Assembly (NCBI GenBank): GCA_017308575.1
Contig: JAFKEQ010000001.1
Location: 434,001-498,000, forward strand
Reading direction: 5' to 3'
DNA from: Afipia sp.
GTDB taxonomy: Bacteria; Pseudomonadota; Alphaproteobacteria; Rhizobiales; Xanthobacteraceae
DNA length: 64,000 nucleotides
Below are positions 33,307 through 59,104 of this stretch, one piece after another; position 1 is the first letter of the stretch, and the number at the start of each line of letters is the position of its first letter. The translations under genes and the position numbers were made by a program. The notes under the pieces are model-generated. The model was not told the origin of the DNA, did not search any database, and saw only the letters and a list, made by a program, of their open reading frames with translations.

Positions 33307-34935
33307 ATGGCGCTAACGCAGAGACTTGAATTTCGCCAGACGCAGTCGCTGGTAATGACGCCGCAGCTGATGCAGGCGATCAAGCTGCTGCAACTGTCGA
33401 ATCTCGATCTGGTGGCGTTCGTCGAGGACGAACTTGAGCGCAATCCTCTGCTGGAGCGCGCGGATCAGGACGGCAGCCCGGACCGCGAGCGGGAACCTGC
33501 AGCCTCGGCGGATTACGCCGAGGGTGATGATGCGGGATTTTCTGGCGGCGAGGGTGAGGCGGCCGCCGGGGCGTTCGAGCCCGGCGCCGAGGAATGGATG
33601 GCGCCCGATCTCGGCAGCCGCGCCGAAATCGAGCAGACCCTCGACACCGGCATGGAGAACGTCTTTCCCGAAGAGCCGGCCGATGCTGCTGCGCGCGCGG
33701 CGCAGGATGCCGCGCCGACTGCTTACACGGAATGGGGCGGCGGGGCTTCCAACGACGACGACTACAATCTCGAAGCCTTCGTCGCAGCCGAGACCACGCT
33801 GAGCGGTCATCTTGCCGAGCAGCTAGCCGTCGCCTTTCCAGATCCCGCGCGCCGCATGATCGGGCAGTACCTGATCGATCTTGTCGATGACGCGGGCTAT
33901 GTCCCTGCCGACCTCGGCGACGCCCATGAGAAGCTCGGGACCTCGCGTGAGGACGTCGAAGCCGTGCTCGCGGTGCTGCAGACTTTCGATCCGCCCGGCG
34001 TGTGCGCGCGAAATCTGAGCGAGTGCCTTGCCATCCAGTTGCGCGAACGCGATCGCTACGATCCGGCGATGCAAGCGCTGGTCGAGAATCTCGATCTCCT
34101 GGCGAAGCGTGACATCGCGGCGCTGCGCAAGATCTGCGGCGTCGATGACGAAGACATCGCCGACATGATCAGCGAGATTCGTCATCTCGATCCGAAACCC
34201 GGCTTGCGATTCGGATCGGCGCGGACGCAGAGCGTTGTGCCGGATGTTTATGTTCGTCCCGGCCCGGACGGCGGATGGCATGTGGAGCTGAACAGCGACA
34301 CGCTGCCGAAGGTACTGGTCAATCAGACCTACTATTCGCAACTGTCCAAGACCATCCGCAAGGACGGCGACAAATCCTATTTCACCGATTGCCTGCAGAA
34401 TGCGACCTGGCTGGTGCGCGCGCTGGATCAACGCGCCCGGACGATCCTGAAAGTCGCGACCGAAATCGTGCGCCAGCAGGACGGTTTCTTCACGCAGGGC
34501 GTGGCGCATCTGCGGCCGCTGAATCTCAAGACCGTCGCCGACGCAATCCAGATGCACGAATCGACAGTGTCCCGCGTCACCGCCAACAAATACATGGCGA
34601 CGAATCGCGGCACGTTCGAACTGAAATATTTCTTCACCGCCTCCATCGCGTCGGCGGATGGCGGCGATGCGCATTCCGCCGAAGCCGTGCGGCACCGCAT
34701 CAAACTGCTGATCGATGCCGAAAGCCCGAATGCCATTCTCTCGGACGACACCATCGTGGAACGTTTGCGTGCCGATGGCATTGACATCGCGCGTCGCACG
34801 GTCGCGAAATACCGTGAGGCCATGCGTATTCCCTCGTCCGTGCAGCGCCGCCGCGACAAGCAGAGCATGCTTGGCACCGCGCTGACGTCGTCGTCTTCGA
34901 CTACGGATCGGTCCCGCGACACAGCAACCGCTTGA
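33307..34935 (+). CDS. rpoN: RNA polymerase sigma-54 factor
   Basis: 542 residues. The glutamine/leucine-rich activator-contact region I is QRLEFRQTQSLVMTPQLMQA and IKLLQLSNLDLVAFVEDEL. An acidic region II of about 120 residues follows. The core-binding domain (PARRMIGQYLIDLVDDAGYV) comes next, then the helix-turn-helix (NLKTVADAIQMHESTVSRVT) and the RpoN box ARRTVAKYREAMRIPSS at the C-terminus. It directs nitrogen and other enhancer-dependent genes. hpf and ptsN follow, the classical rpoN neighbourhood. Confidence 0.99.
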   Translation: MALTQRLEFRQTQSLVMTPQLMQAIKLLQLSNLDLVAFVEDELERNPLLERADQDGSPDREREPAASADYAEGDDAGFSGGEGEAAAGAFEPGAEEWMAPDLGSRAEIEQTLDTGMENVFPEEPADAAARAAQDAAPTAYTEWGGGASNDDDYNLEAFVAAETTLSGHLAEQLAVAFPDPARRMIGQYLIDLVDDAGYVPADLGDAHEKLGTSREDVEAVLAVLQTFDPPGVCARNLSECLAIQLRERDRYDPAMQALVENLDLLAKRDIAALRKICGVDDEDIADMISEIRHLDPKPGLRFGSARTQSVVPDVYVRPGPDGGWHVELNSDTLPKVLVNQTYYSQLSKTIRKDGDKSYFTDCLQNATWLVRALDQRARTILKVATEIVRQQDGFFTQGVAHLRPLNLKTVADAIQMHESTVSRVTANKYMATNRGTFELKYFFTASIASADGGDAHSAEAVRHRIKLLIDAESPNAILSDDTIVERLRADGIDIARRTVAKYREAMRIPSSVQRRRDKQSMLGTALTSSSSTTDRSRDTATA

Positions 34936-35003
34936 CGGCGCGCTCAAGAAGCGGAACGCTCCTATCTCCGAACTGCAATTTGACGAAGCAAGTGAGGAAA
35001 GAC

Positions 35004-35618
35004 ATGACCCTGCGGATTTCAGGAAAAAGTATCAGCATTGGCGAAGCCATCCGTGATCGCGTCAGCGAGCGCACGGACGAAGTGCTGCGCAAGTATTTCG
35101 ACGGCAACTATTCCGGTCACATCACACTCAGCAAGGATGGCTTCGGTTTCCGTACCGACTGCGCGCTTCATCTCGATTCGGGAATCACGCTGGAGGCCGA
35201 CGCCATGGCGGCGGACGCCTATGCAAGCGCCGACCAGGCGCTGCTGATGATCGAGAAGCGACTGCGCCGCTACAAGAGCCGGCTGAAGGATCGCTCCGCG
35301 CGCAAGGCCTATGCGGCGAACGCCGCGCTGGCGGACATCAACGGCGCGGCGCTCGATGCGCCCAGCTATGTCATCGAGGCGCCCTCGCATGAGGATGAAG
35401 ACACCAGCGAGTTCAACCCGGTCATCATCGCCGAGGCCACGACCTCGCTGCGGCGCTTTTCCGTAAGCGAAGCGGTGATGGAACTGGACCTTACCGGCGC
35501 GCCGGTCGTTGTCTTCCAGCACGGCTCGAGCGGCCGGGTGAACGTGATTTACCGGCGGCCGGACGGTAATGTGGGCTGGGTCGATCCCCCGGCGATCTCC
35601 GATCCGGTTCGCCACTGA
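35004..35618 (+). CDS. hpf: Ribosome hibernation promoting factor, long form
   Basis: 204 residues: an N-terminal RaiA/HPF domain (LRISGKSISIGEAIRDRVSE, YFDGNYSGHITLSKDGFGF, EADAMAADAYASADQALLMI) and a C-terminal dimerisation domain (LRRFSVSEAVMELDLTGAPV, VNVIYRRPDGNVGWVDPP), so it is the long type that dimerises 70S ribosomes to 100S. ATG 35004 has AGGAAA upstream. It is placed between rpoN and ptsN, as in many Proteobacteria. Confidence 0.96.
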   Translation: MTLRISGKSISIGEAIRDRVSERTDEVLRKYFDGNYSGHITLSKDGFGFRTDCALHLDSGITLEADAMAADAYASADQALLMIEKRLRRYKSRLKDRSARKAYAANAALADINGAALDAPSYVIEAPSHEDEDTSEFNPVIIAEATTSLRRFSVSEAVMELDLTGAPVVVFQHGSSGRVNVIYRRPDGNVGWVDPPAISDPVRH

Positions 35619-35630
35619 GAGAGGCGGCCA

Positions 35631-35659
35631 TTGACGCCTTCGGCGTGTCTAACTATGGT
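35631..35659 (+). promoter_or_regulatory. Candidate sigma-70 promoter before ptsN
   Basis: TTGACG (35631-35636), 17-base spacer, TATGGT (35654-35659), followed by a short hairpin (GTCCGCAG / CTGCGGGC) in the leader. The match is moderate. It would give ptsN a transcript of its own in addition to readthrough from hpf. Confidence 0.4.
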
Positions 35660-35768
35660 CCGCAGCCTTTCGGGACTGCGGGCCAGATTAGCCTCCCGAA
35701 GCCCTTGACGATGCACGGTCTGAGACCGGGTTTCTAAGATTCACCAACGGCTTAACTTACCCCTCGGC

Positions 35769-36236
35769 ATGTTCATGACGATTACCGACCTTGTCGCACC
35801 CGAGGCGATCATTCCTGCGTTGAAAGTCAACAGCAAGAAGCAGGCGCTTCAGGAACTCGCCGCGCGTGCCGCCGTTCTCACCGGACAGAACGAGCGATCG
35901 ATCTTCGAAGTGCTGCTGCAGCGGGAAAAGCTGGGCACCACGGCGGTGGGCTATGGCGTTGCGATTCCGCACGGCAAGCTGCCGAAGCTTGAGAAGCTGT
36001 CGGGCCTGTTTGCGCGTCTGGAACGTCCGATCGATTTCGAGGCAATGGACGGGCAGCCGGTGGATCTCGTGTTCCTGCTGCTGGCGCCGGAAGGCGCAGG
36101 CGCGGATCATCTGAAGGCGCTGGCGCGCATTGCGCGCCTGCTGCGCGATCAGGACATCGCCAAGAAGCTGCGCGCCTCGCGCGATGCAGAGGCGCTGTAT
36201 TCGGTGCTGGCGCTGCCGCCGGCGACCGCTGCTTAA
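35769..36236 (+). CDS. ptsN: PTS-Ntr EIIA nitrogen regulatory protein
   Basis: 155 residues (153 if started at the second ATG, 35775). A phosphotransferase EIIA domain of the fructose/mannitol type with the phosphorylated histidine in YGVAIPHGKLPKL (His66 counted from 35775). It receives phosphate from PtsP/NPr and regulates carbon-nitrogen balance and potassium transport rather than sugar uptake. ptsO (NPr) is not in this window. Its end is followed by a two-way terminator. Confidence 0.96.
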   Translation: MFMTITDLVAPEAIIPALKVNSKKQALQELAARAAVLTGQNERSIFEVLLQREKLGTTAVGYGVAIPHGKLPKLEKLSGLFARLERPIDFEAMDGQPVDLVFLLLAPEGAGADHLKALARIARLLRDQDIAKKLRASRDAEALYSVLALPPATAA

Positions 36237-36321: not shown

Positions 36322-36585
36322 TCAGTGGACGCTGACGGTCTCCAGCTCGTTGCTCCATGCATTCGCGATCGCCGCTTCGCGGCTGTCGGTGAGCATGATC
36401 GGCGTGCCGTCGGCGGCGTGAAGCGCGAACAGCTTCAGGCCGGGCGCGATCTGCGGCGCCTGCGGGAAAAGCCCCGGCACGTCTTCCGAGCGAATCTGTT
36501 TGACGTAGGCGATGTGGCCTTCGCCGAGGGTTGCCAGCGTCTCAAGCGAGACGGCCGGTTCGAAGATGACGGTACCTTCAGTCAT
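36322..36585 (-). CDS. DUF1150 family protein
   Basis: 87 residues of the DUF1150 family: LETLATLGEGHIAYVKQIRS, IAPGLKLFALHAADGTPIML and DSREAAIANAWSNEL. It is small, soluble and restricted to Alphaproteobacteria. It lies 50 bases downstream of the small heat-shock gene on the same strand, so it is probably part of the same heat-induced transcript; this pairing is common in the group. No biochemical function known. Confidence 0.88.
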   Translation of the reverse strand: MTEGTVIFEPAVSLETLATLGEGHIAYVKQIRSEDVPGLFPQAPQIAPGLKLFALHAADGTPIMLTDSREAAIANAWSNELETVSVH

Positions 36586-36635: not shown

Positions 36636-37061
36636 TTATTCGTGTTCTTTGATGGCTATCGTCTTAACGACCCGTTCAGGCTCGGGACGAGCCAGATCGA
36701 TCGACAGCAAACCGTTCTTCAGGTCGGCGCCGATGACATACATCCCGTCCGCCAGCACGAAGGTGCGCTGGAAATGACGTGCGGCGATGCCGCGATGGAT
36801 GTACTGCCGGGTCTTGTCGTCCTGCTGGCGGCCCCGGATCACGAGCTGGTTTTCCTCGGTGGTGACATCGAGTTGGTCGCGCGTAAATCCTGCGACCGCC
36901 AGCGTGATCCGCAGGCGTTCGGGCTGGCCCTCTTCACGGCCGCACCGCTCGATGTTGTAAGGAGGATAACCGTCTGCGCCTTTCACGACGCGATCGAGCG
37001 CACGCTCGATTTCGTCGAATCCCAAAAGGAACGGTGACGATAACGAAGGAACACGAGACAT
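36636..37061 (-). CDS. Small heat-shock protein (Hsp20 / IbpA family)
   Basis: 141 residues; an ATP-independent holdase chaperone. The alpha-crystallin domain includes GYPPYNIERCGREEG, LRITLAVAGFTRDQLDVTTE, NQLVIRGRQQDDKTRQYIHR, and the terminal ISL-type contact motif appears as LLSIDLARPEPERV. ATG 37061 (MSRVPSLSSPFLLGFDEI) is chosen; its AGAGGA ribosome site is buried in a predicted ROSE-like hairpin and an RpoH-type promoter lies about 95 to 120 bases upstream. It is cotranscribed with the DUF1150 gene. Confidence 0.95.
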   Translation of the reverse strand: MSRVPSLSSPFLLGFDEIERALDRVVKGADGYPPYNIERCGREEGQPERLRITLAVAGFTRDQLDVTTEENQLVIRGRQQDDKTRQYIHRGIAARHFQRTFVLADGMYVIGADLKNGLLSIDLARPEPERVVKTIAIKEHE

Positions 37062-37150
37062 TCTCAAAGTCCTCTCGAAGCGACTTTGGGTCGGAGCCCT
37101 TTCGGCGCCCCTTCCTGGATTCCCGGTGCCCTTGCGGCACACCGGTTAAA
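37062..37150 (-). promoter_or_regulatory. ROSE-like RNA thermometer in the hsp20 leader
   Basis: On the minus strand the last hairpin before the start (37065-37088) is CAAAGUC-G-CU, loop, AG-GACUUUG. The ribosome site AGAGGA is paired with UCGCU, leaving one bulged G. This is the UYGCU / SD pairing with a bulged G that defines ROSE elements. Two further hairpins lie upstream: GUGCC/GGCAC with a GCAAG loop, and GGGGC-CC with a GAAA loop closed by GG-GCUCC. Total leader about 85 bases. ROSE elements were first described for rhizobial small heat-shock genes. Structure drawn by eye. Confidence 0.75.
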
Positions 37151-37154
37151 TTCA

Positions 37155-37182
37155 ATATGGCGATTTCGCGGTTCCGTTCAAG
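37155..37182 (-). promoter_or_regulatory. Candidate sigma-32 (RpoH) promoter of hsp20
   Basis: On the minus strand: CTTGAA, a 16-base spacer, CCATAT(TGA). The spacing and boxes fit RpoH promoters and put the transcript start about 85 bases before the hsp20 ATG, exactly the span of the ROSE-like leader. Confidence 0.65.
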
Positions 37183-37218: not shown

Positions 37219-38319
37219 TCAGCCGTCCAGCCGGCTGCGGCCATCGGCGGCGAACAGATGGAGCTTGTCCCGCGCGGCCGTGACCCTGATCCGCTCGCCG
37301 ATCGCGGGCGCAGTGTCGCCCGGCAGGCGCACGATGATCTCGCCGGGCGGCAGTTCGCCCGGCTTCGCGCTGACGGCGGGCGTGCCTTCGGCCTGCGCGC
37401 GCTTGCCATAGACGAACGTCTCCGCGCCGACCCGCTCGATGGCATCGACTGTCAGTTCGAGCGCGAGGCCGGCGGGCGTCGATGGACCGGTCAGCGCGAA
37501 GTCTTCCGGCCGCACGCCGAGAATGGCATCGCCGGGGACATCGATCCGCAGATCGCCGAGTAGCGGACCGAGGCCATTGGAGTTGACGGGGAGCAGGTTC
37601 ATTGGCGGTGCGCCAATGAACGACGCGACGAATGTGGTGGCGGGCTTGCTGTAGATGTCGAGCGGCTTGCCGATCTGCTCCACCACGCCGCCGTTCATCA
37701 CCACCAGAATGTCGGCCAGCGTCATCGCCTCGAGCTGGTCGTGGGTGACGTAGATCGAAGTGGTCTTGAGGCGGCGCTGCAGCTTGCGGATTTCGACGCG
37801 CATGGCGATGCGCAGCTTGGCGTCGAGATTCGACAGCGGTTCGTCGAACAGGAACACTTTCGGCTGCCGCACGATGGCGCGGCCCATGGCGACGCGCTGG
37901 CGCTGGCCGCCGGAAAGCTGGCGCGGCTTGCGCTCCAGCATCGGCGCGATTTCGAGAATCTGCGCGGCTTCGCGCACGCGCGCGTCGATCTCAGGCTTGG
38001 GCACGCCGCGATTGCGCAGGCCATAGGCCATGTTGTTGTAGACGCTCATGTGCGGATAGAGCGCGTAGTTCTGAAACACCATGGCGATGTCGCGGTCGGC
38101 GGGCTCGATCTCGTTGACCACGCGGCCGCCGATATCGATGGTCCCGCTGGTGATGGTCTCGAGGCCCGCCACCATGCGCAGCAGCGTGGACTTGCCGCAG
38201 CCCGACGGTCCGACCAGCACGCAGAACTGTCCATCGCCGACCTCGAAGTCGATGCCCTTGATGGCCTCGACTCCGCCCGCATAGGTCTTCCTGACATCGC
38301 GCAGAACGACGTTCGCCAT
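37219..38319 (-). CDS. ugpC: sn-Glycerol-3-phosphate ABC transporter ATP-binding protein
   Basis: 366 residues, a MalK/UgpC-type ATPase with a C-terminal regulatory OB/TOBE domain. Walker [13 protein letters not shown]-loop [14 protein letters not shown], signature [19 protein letters not shown], Walker [17 protein letters not shown], switch [12 protein letters not shown]. It energises the UgpA/UgpE permease. Last gene of ugpB-A-E-C; 9-base gap after ugpE. Assignment to glycerol-3-phosphate rests on the operon, since MalK-type ATPases are alike. Confidence 0.93.
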
Positions 38320-38328
38320 ACTTGCTTC

Positions 38329-39177
38329 CTACTTCTCGGTCTCGACCAGGCCGCGCACGAACAGCCGCTGCATCAGGATCACCACGGCCACCGGCGGCAG
38401 CATCGCCAGCACGGCGGTCGCCATCGCAAGCTGCCATTCGGCGAGTTCGTCGGTGGTGGTCAGCATTTTCTTGATGCCGGTGACGATGGTCTGCATCGAA
38501 TCCTGCGTCGTGATCAGCAGCGGCCACAGATACTGATTCCAGCCGTAAATGAACTGGATCACGAACAGCGCCGCGATGGTGGTGACCGACAGCGGCAGCA
38601 GCGTATCCTTGAAGAAGCGGAACGGGCCCGCGCCGTCGATCTTCGACGCTTCCAGCAATTCCTCCGGCACGGTCATGAAGAACTGCCGGAACAGCAGCGT
38701 GCCGGTCGCGGAGGCGATCAGCGGCAGGATCAGGCCCGCATAGGTGTCGAGCAGATGCAGGTCCGCCACCACCTTGTAGGTCGGATAGATGCGCACCTCG
38801 ACCGGCAGCATCAGCGTAATGAAGATGATCCAGAACGCGGTCTTGCGGAAAGGGAAGCGGAAGTAGACCACCGCGAACGCCGACAGGATCGAGATAATGA
38901 TCTTGCCGACCGCAATGCCGGTGGCGGAGATGAAGGAATTCATCAGCATGTGGCCGACCGGCTCGCGGCTGGCGCGTGAGCCGCCGACAAAGATCGCGCG
39001 ATAGTAATTCTCCAGCGTATGCGTGCCGGGCGAGAGCGGCATGTTGCCGGTGACCACCGTCGCGGCGTCGTGAGTCGAGGCGATCACCGCGAGATAGACC
39101 GGAAACGCGACGATGAAGACGCCGAAGATCAGGATGGCGTAGGCGAGAAAATCGCGCAGCGGGCGGTGCTCGACCAT
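38329..39177 (-). CDS. ugpE: sn-Glycerol-3-phosphate ABC transporter permease UgpE
   Basis: 282 residues with six membrane helices and the EAA loop for ATPase contact (PEELLEASKIDGAGPFRFFK). An N-terminal [16 protein letters not shown] segment and the long periplasmic loop YLAVIASTHDAATVVTGNMP are family-typical for UgpE. One-base stop/start overlap (TGATG) with ugpA, so translation is coupled. Confidence 0.94.
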   Translation of the reverse strand: MVEHRPLRDFLAYAILIFGVFIVAFPVYLAVIASTHDAATVVTGNMPLSPGTHTLENYYRAIFVGGSRASREPVGHMLMNSFISATGIAVGKIIISILSAFAVVYFRFPFRKTAFWIIFITLMLPVEVRIYPTYKVVADLHLLDTYAGLILPLIASATGTLLFRQFFMTVPEELLEASKIDGAGPFRFFKDTLLPLSVTTIAALFVIQFIYGWNQYLWPLLITTQDSMQTIVTGIKKMLTTTDELAEWQLAMATAVLAMLPPVAVVILMQRLFVRGLVETEK

Positions 39178-40058
39178 CAGTATTGCACCTTGCGCTCGAC
39201 ATAGCGGAACTGGATCGCGGTGAGCGCGATCACGATCACCATCAGGATCACCGACTGCGCGGCGGAGCCGCCGAGATCGCCGCCGAGGCGGCCGTCGGCA
39301 AACACCTTGTAGACCATGGTGGTGGTCGCGCCCGCCGGGCCGCCGCCGGTCACCGCATCGATGATGCCGAAGGTGTCAAAGAATACGTAGACGACATTGA
39401 CCACCAGCAGGAAGAACAGTGTCGGCGACAGCAGCGGGAAGGTCACGGTCCAGAACCGGCGCAGCGGTTTCGCGCCGTCGATGGCGGCGGCCTCGAGCAC
39501 GCTTTTCGGAATCGCCTGAAGCCCGGCGAGAAAGAACAGGAAATTATAGGCGATCTGTTTCCAGACCGCGGCCATCACCACCAGCGTGAGGGCGTGGTGG
39601 CCGTTCAGCATCGGATTCCAGTCGAAGCCGAGCACGCGCAGCGGCCGCGCCAGCGTGCCGAGCGAGGGATGAAACATGAAGATCCACAGCACGCCCGCGA
39701 TCGCGGGCGCCACCGCATAAGGCCACATCATCATCGTCTTGAAGACGGGCGCGGCTTTCAGCTCCTTGTCCGCCTGTGTCGCGAACAGCAGCGCAATGCT
39801 CAGCGAGGCCAGCGCGACGAGCGTGGAGAACACGGCGGTGGTGACGATCGCCTTGTAGTATTCGGGCTGGGCGAGCAGCGTCTGATAATTTTCCAGTCCG
39901 ACGAATTCGGTGTTCAGGCCGAACGCATCCTCGCGCAGGAAGGACTGCCACACCGCCTGGCTGGCTGGCCAGTAGAAGAACACGAACGTGATGATGAGCT
40001 GCGGAATCAGCAGCAGATAGGGCAGCAACTTGTTGTGGAAGACAGCGGATTTTTCCAT
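39177..40058 (-). CDS. ugpA: sn-Glycerol-3-phosphate ABC transporter permease UgpA
   Basis: 293 residues, six membrane helices, EAA motif [20 protein letters not shown]. The N-terminus [20 protein letters not shown] and the periplasmic [20 protein letters not shown] are typical of UgpA. It forms the membrane channel with UgpE. Confidence 0.94.
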
Positions 40059-58716: not shown

Positions 58717-59104
58717 TTTCCATCATTTGAGTTGTGTTGCGCCGCGCGATCATCGTCTGCGCGCGCGTCATGCATGGAAGAATGCGTGAGCACAAACAAA
58801 AACGGCCAGCTTGCGCTGACCGGAAGGCTTGGGGATCTATAGACCGCGAACAGACCCGATCCTGACGACCCCGGGGGGCTGGGGGCTGAGGAATCCGGTG
58901 CCGAAAGGACCGGGTCAACGCAGTGAGGAGATCATTGCGGTCCAGCACGGCGGTCGATTGACCGAATTCAGGCGGTATTATGATTTGTCTAACGTCCGCG
59001 TGATGATCGATATGCCGCGTCACGCGGCAGGACGCCGCTCCAAAACAGGCTTGCAGCCTTCGCCGGACGGGTGGATCATGTCGTTGAGATGACAGGAGGC
59101 GCCG
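58717..59104. other. Intergenic region, possible small ORF or RNA
   Basis: 388 bases between the DUF1223 and DUF2794 genes. It contains a weak hairpin (GGCCAGC / GCTGACC) near 58802, then an open frame of 87 codons at 58829-59092 with no recognisable domain and no clear ribosome site. GTGCCGAAAGGACCGGGTC and similar runs could be structured RNA. I leave it unassigned. Confidence 0.5.

Follow-up and report, generated by a model that had tools for sequence, protein, structure and literature searches.

More than 40 ROSE elements have been predicted in alpha- and gammaproteobacteria, and in M. loti every class A small heat-shock protein (sHSP) gene was reported to carry one (PMC3989490). In ROSE-G (PMC12857270) and in the ROSE-like elements of ABC-transporter genes (PMC11342760), a bulged G in the strand that faces the ribosome site (SD) weakens the helix and is needed for the heat response. 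Dual control by sigma32 and a ROSE element has already been demonstrated for ibpA of Pseudomonas (PMC3669281). Another described system is the shsp2-larA operon of Caulobacter, which is sigma32-dependent and induced by proteotoxic stress. Its product LarA activates Lon via the C-terminal five residues, of which V86, V88 and H89 are critical, and a V-x-V-H ending is required (PMC10665427). The paper on this operon does not mention a thermometer or leader control for shsp2-larA.

Here we describe the leader of an hsp20-larA gene pair in Afipia sp., within a stretch of 64,000 nucleotides (contig JAFKEQ010000001.1, positions 434,001 to 498,000) that we call the window. We give a probability of roughly 0.85 to the reading that the 5' leader of this sigma32-transcribed operon is a ROSE-type RNA thermometer, which would melt and control translation with temperature. 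We read it this way because sequence, predicted structure, covariation, conservation and the promoter match all point to it. The features are, with bulged bases in brackets:

36322 to 36585, minus strand: DUF1150 gene, the presumed second gene of the operon, coding for a LarA homologue of 87 aa with the C-terminus VSVH (Pfam: PF06620, E 7.5e-33; NCBIfam: NF052376, above cut-off)
36636 to 37061, minus strand: hsp20, coding for an IbpA-like class A small heat-shock protein of 141 aa (Pfam: PF00011, E 3.5e-17)
37065 to 37088, minus strand: hairpin III, the SD hairpin of ROSE type, CAAAGUC[G]CUUCGAGAGGACUUUG, bulged G at 37081
37093 to 37111, minus strand: hairpin II, GGGGC[G]CC gaaa GGGCUCC, bulged G at 37106, from the RNAalifold consensus of 41 leaders
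37123 to 37145, minus strand: hairpin I, CCGGUGU[G]CC gcaa GGGCACCGG, bulged G at 37138, from the minimum free energy and centroid folds, with its core found by script
37155 to 37182, minus strand: RpoH (sigma32)-type promoter CTTGAA-N16-CCATAT, with CTTGAA at 37182-37177 and CCATAT at 37160-37155

The start codon of hsp20 lies at 37061 on the minus strand. The NCBIfam IbpA/IbpB models score the protein at about 94 bits, which is under their cut-offs. We call the DUF1150 protein LarA because PMC10665427 gives that identity, and its function is assigned by homology. It has the DUF1150 domain, a C-terminal hydrophobic degron ending in V-x-V-H (here TVSVH) and an adjacent sHSP gene; VSVH is the C-terminal tail in 126 of the 194 homologues counted. 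The two genes are separated by 50 nt and are probably cotranscribed. Heat control of the DUF1150 gene, as proposed in the initial annotation, fits the findings in Caulobacter, where the shsp2-larA operon depends on sigma32 (PMC10665427). larA has an SD of its own some 50 nt further on, and the ROSE control may reach it too.

Around this larA ribosome site (36622-36591, minus strand) there is a repeat, GGACTCGACC ... AGGAGTCGAG / AAGGAGTCGAG, which is strongly conserved in Afipia, Bradyrhizobium and Xanthobacteraceae relatives and allows two pairing registers. RNAalifold on the intergenic alignment predicted no pairs and no consensus structure despite the conserved repeat, and a second thermometer over the larA SD was dropped.

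Among the neighbouring genes, a ribosome hibernation factor (HPF) and PtsN are encoded convergently to the operon (34932-36236, plus strand). Upstream of the promoter are a UgpC-type ABC ATPase and permease-like ORFs (37219-40058, minus strand); the -35 box follows about 37 bases after the end of the ATPase gene, and transcription may read through into the leader. The window also contains the Bradyrhizobiaceae sRNA BjrC174 (58799-59004, minus strand; 156.9 bits).

The initial annotation had placed an RpoH-type promoter just where the leader begins, and it is indeed present and conserved among relatives. It has CTTGAA and CCATAT exactly, with a spacer of 16 inside the 13-18 range, and matches the sigma32 consensus NNCTTGAA-N13-18-CNCCATAT quoted in PMC3669281. 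It is the sole such site in the 64 kb window, where shuffles expect 0.00. CTTGAA-N14-18-CCATAT was found in 89 of 104 distinct ortholog leaders and in 0-1 shuffled ones. A looser form of the promoter occurs in 103 of 104 close leaders, i.e. distinct leaders with at least 70% Hsp20 identity, and in 31 of 120 distant leaders (shuffles at most 3). The transcript is predicted to start at about 37148.

From this predicted start, the 90-nt leader folds into three hairpins with -38.5 kcal/mol, versus a mean of -28.5 for dinucleotide shuffles (z = -3.2), none of the 200 shuffles being as stable. The predicted fold bears out the earlier description of the ribosome site in a hairpin at 37065-37088 with UCGCU, one bulged G opposite the SD as the ROSE signature, and two further hairpins 5' of it (37145-37123 and 37111-37093). 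The anti-SD UCGCU (37083-37079) faces the SD AGAGGA (37075-37070) and pairs with its AGGA (37073-37070), leaving G37081 unpaired. As in ROSE elements generally, a U(U/C)GCU anti-SD with a bulged G is imperfectly paired with the SD in the 3'-proximal hairpin, there are further 5' hairpins (three hairpins here, where two to four in all are usual) and an sHSP gene, the PF00011 Hsp20, follows immediately downstream.

Orthologous leaders were gathered from the genus, family, order and class. In 41 Rhizobiales leaders, RNAalifold returned the same two bulged-G hairpins unguided and with compensatory changes. In this consensus 97.4% of cells are paired and seven pairs have two-sided changes; none of 500 shuffles reached either value and none of the slid alignments equalled the pairing and covariation values. 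Four of the seven pairs of hairpin II show two-sided changes. The bulged position G37081 is invariant in 41 of 41 leaders (Rhizobiales alignment A2) and conserved in relatives. In the sequence-anchored set of 111 leaders, which was selected on [CT]GC[CT], 100 have GCU and 11 have GCC. A hairpin with a G bulge over the SD was found in 92 of 94 distinct leaders of the close group and in 103 of 120 of the distant group; after shuffling of the sequence 5' of the SD, the means were 27 and 44. Furthermore, the third outer pair of the SD hairpin switches between C-G and G-C. With arms anchored by sequence only, it is paired in a fraction of 0.84 versus a permuted maximum of 0.66, and 0 of 2000 permutations were as high. 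Shuffles and permutations leave shared ancestry in place; the C-G/G-C switches occur between distant families.

The sequence of the SD helix varies across the class while the unpaired G is constant: Rhizobiales have AAAGUC/GACUUU, and in many other families the same UCGCU is flanked by CUC/GAG. A MAFFT alignment of the class-wide 48-mers was set aside because loop length varies and the 3' arm is placed wrongly; sequence-anchored counting and the Rhizobiales alignment were used instead. In relatives the ROSE-type architecture is conserved together with the G bulge facing the SD and the RpoH-type promoter before the leader. In five leaders of Chelatococcus, Beijerinckiaceae and other Hyphomicrobiales (L142, L143, L144, L146, L147), UGCC replaces UCGCU (CGAAGU[G]CC/GGGCUUCG), and the SD hairpin has apparently been converted to the core otherwise found in the upstream hairpin.

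We built a covariance model from the 41 Rhizobiales hsp20-larA leaders. It has one strong site in its own genome, which is this leader (E = 1e-12), and, in a search of 150 genomes of the order, a single match in each of 42. All 30 significant matches that were fetched lie directly 5' of hsp20 followed by DUF1150. A second match in the own genome (C2:796684, E = 1.4), with no Hsp20 or DUF1150 match, was treated as chance.

The Rfam ROSE model, which the initial annotation had put forward as a check, failed to call the leader. RF00435 gives 20.3 bits (E 0.42) with a cut-off of 45, and a scan of the window at the gathering threshold had no ROSE match. Searching the own genome with RF00435 gave no match either, with the built-in controls likewise silent. 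As positive controls we used the hspA-type leaders of seven paralogous hsp20 genes in related genomes (L055, L056, L058-L062), which RF00435 finds at 49.7-81.9 bits. None of the hsp20-larA leaders tried reaches gathering, the best sub-threshold score being 35.5 bits (L041). For this leader type the test has no power, because the model recognises hspA-type leaders but did not call a single hsp20-larA leader among those tried. The miss thus reflects how the model sees this leader type and not a fault of the search. The own genome also has another class A hsp20 (C4:196731-197084), whose ribosome site is covered by a bulged-G hairpin with UCGCU/GGAGGA; its leader is not called by RF00435.

One feature was missed in the initial annotation: hairpins I and II repeat the same core, YGCC/GGG, each with one bulged G (37138 in I, 37106 in II). 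With the SD hairpin included, the common core is Y-G-C-Y / R-G-G, its G being unpaired in all three. Such a hairpin lies 5' of the SD hairpin in 102 of 103 leaders of the close group and in 91 of 120 of the distant group, where the null gives 5-7. When every kind of single-base bulge is counted, a G in the 5' arm is enriched, with 88 of 103 and 98 of 119 leaders (20 and 28 in the null). No enrichment was seen for C or T or for any bulge in the 3' arm, and a 5'-arm A bulge is mildly enriched in the close group only. Outside the core, the sequence of the upstream stems is free to change. A G is likewise bulged in the first helix of the RF00435 consensus, which makes the upstream bulged G common to classical ROSE elements. 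We found no discussion of it in the literature searched, which excluded the original ROSE descriptions. A tentative idea, which we hold to be possible rather than probable, is that, within the ROSE type, the hsp20-larA leaders form a separate RNA family that extends across the class and is built from repeated bulged-G modules. Only the last module would cover the SD and the others would have an unrecognised role, such as a second sensor, a folding guide or a binding site, and the Lon activator LarA would be under both thermometer and sigma32.

When the leader was folded at 25 and 42 °C, as had been suggested, the cost of opening the SD fell from 7.4 to 5.6 kcal/mol and the SD stayed mostly paired. 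In the nearest-neighbour model the SD is mostly paired even at 42-50 °C, which is also true for the RF00435-positive leaders. Their opening costs are 2.1-5.9 (25 °C) and 1.5-4.3 kcal/mol (42 °C), which puts this leader on the stable side, with a similar fall with temperature. According to the energy model, deletion of the bulged G stabilises the isolated SD hairpin by 3.8 kcal/mol at 37 °C. The MiniROSE structure persists at 45 °C until it is ribosome-bound (PMC4288164). The M. loti gene mlr3192/hspH, an sHSP gene with a ROSE element, was not heat-induced (PMC3989490), and published work does not count A. tumefaciens hspC among the sHSP genes that heat induces. If mlr3192 or hspC is the ortholog of this hsp20, ROSE leaders need not give strong induction. 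A heat function of this leader, modelled here by folding, is probable.

We propose that under heat or protein-folding stress RpoH would transcribe the operon from CTTGAA-N16-CCATAT, and the leader would form two or three hairpins, the last of which at low temperature would pair the hsp20 SD with UCGCU, in a helix that the unpaired G37081 is expected to weaken. Warming, probably with the help of the ribosome, would open the helix and Hsp20 would be translated. LarA from the same transcript may then activate Lon, and holding and degrading of damaged proteins would be induced together.

That the sigma32 promoter alone regulates the operon is improbable in our view. In this reading the hairpins would be passive elements that stabilise or insulate the mRNA, and translation would run at a constant rate set by the SD hairpin. 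The strong conservation of the promoter fits such regulation, as does the barely shifting predicted SD accessibility, and for Caulobacter, sigma32 and turnover by Lon were given as the whole explanation of LarA accumulation, leader control being unmentioned (PMC10665427). However, the anti-SD keeps an unpaired G while its flanking pairs covary, and in other tested ROSE elements removal or pairing of this G reduces or abolishes heat induction (PMC11342760, PMC12857270). Less probable again, with only a slight chance, is a translational switch that responds to a protein or small RNA and not to temperature itself. The identical bulged-G core that the upstream hairpins conserve away from the SD could be a protein-binding site, but apart from this core the stem sequences are free to vary. 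The short ROSE leaders of Pseudomonas ibpA work in E. coli (PMC3669281), so that this kind of element needs no lineage-specific factor.

The hairpin over the ribosome site might also be a chance fold in a GC-rich leader. The bare motif TYGCT-N3-12-AGGA, with 383 occurrences in the genome, is no commoner than its reversed control (542). This motif is not rare and the significance therefore comes from position and conservation. A chance hairpin is contradicted by the fold z-score, the class-wide recurrence with covariation, the consensus fold and the matches of the covariance model; we reject it, its probability being close to nil. We retain the ROSE-type thermometer behind a sigma32 promoter as the best explanation.

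Compared with the rhizobial hspA-type leaders of RF00435, this leader has in common an upstream bulged-G hairpin, an SD hairpin with U(U/C)GCU and a bulged G, and a class A sHSP gene. The SD helix is of the AUGUU/AUAU type there, whereas here it is AAAGUC/GACUUU in a shorter leader of an hsp20-larA operon. With the ROSE-like thermometers of Pseudomonas ibpA (PMC3669281) it shares a short leader, the U(U/C)GCU anti-SD and a sigma32 promoter of the same consensus. These are monocistronic, gammaproteobacterial and have two hairpins, in contrast to three hairpins and a downstream larA here. ROSE-G has CUGCU, and its SD strand bulges a second G; this leader has UCGCU, and its SD strand is free of bulges. 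The ROSE-like elements of PMC11342760 control ABC-transporter genes, whereas the ABC-transporter gene here is upstream of the leader and not under it. The Caulobacter shsp2-larA operon (PMC10665427) has the same gene pair, a likeness seen in genes and published regulation.

ROSE elements on small heat-shock genes, and sigma32 together with ROSE in Pseudomonas, are already known. Our analysis adds a conserved leader type that is uncalled by Rfam and specific to the operon with the newly described Lon activator LarA, as well as a class-wide and specific enrichment of a 5'-arm bulged G in hairpins away from the ribosome site. This repeated G raises a testable question on the role of the upstream ROSE hairpins, and the tie to LarA leads to a concrete prediction: temperature would set not only transcription but also translation.
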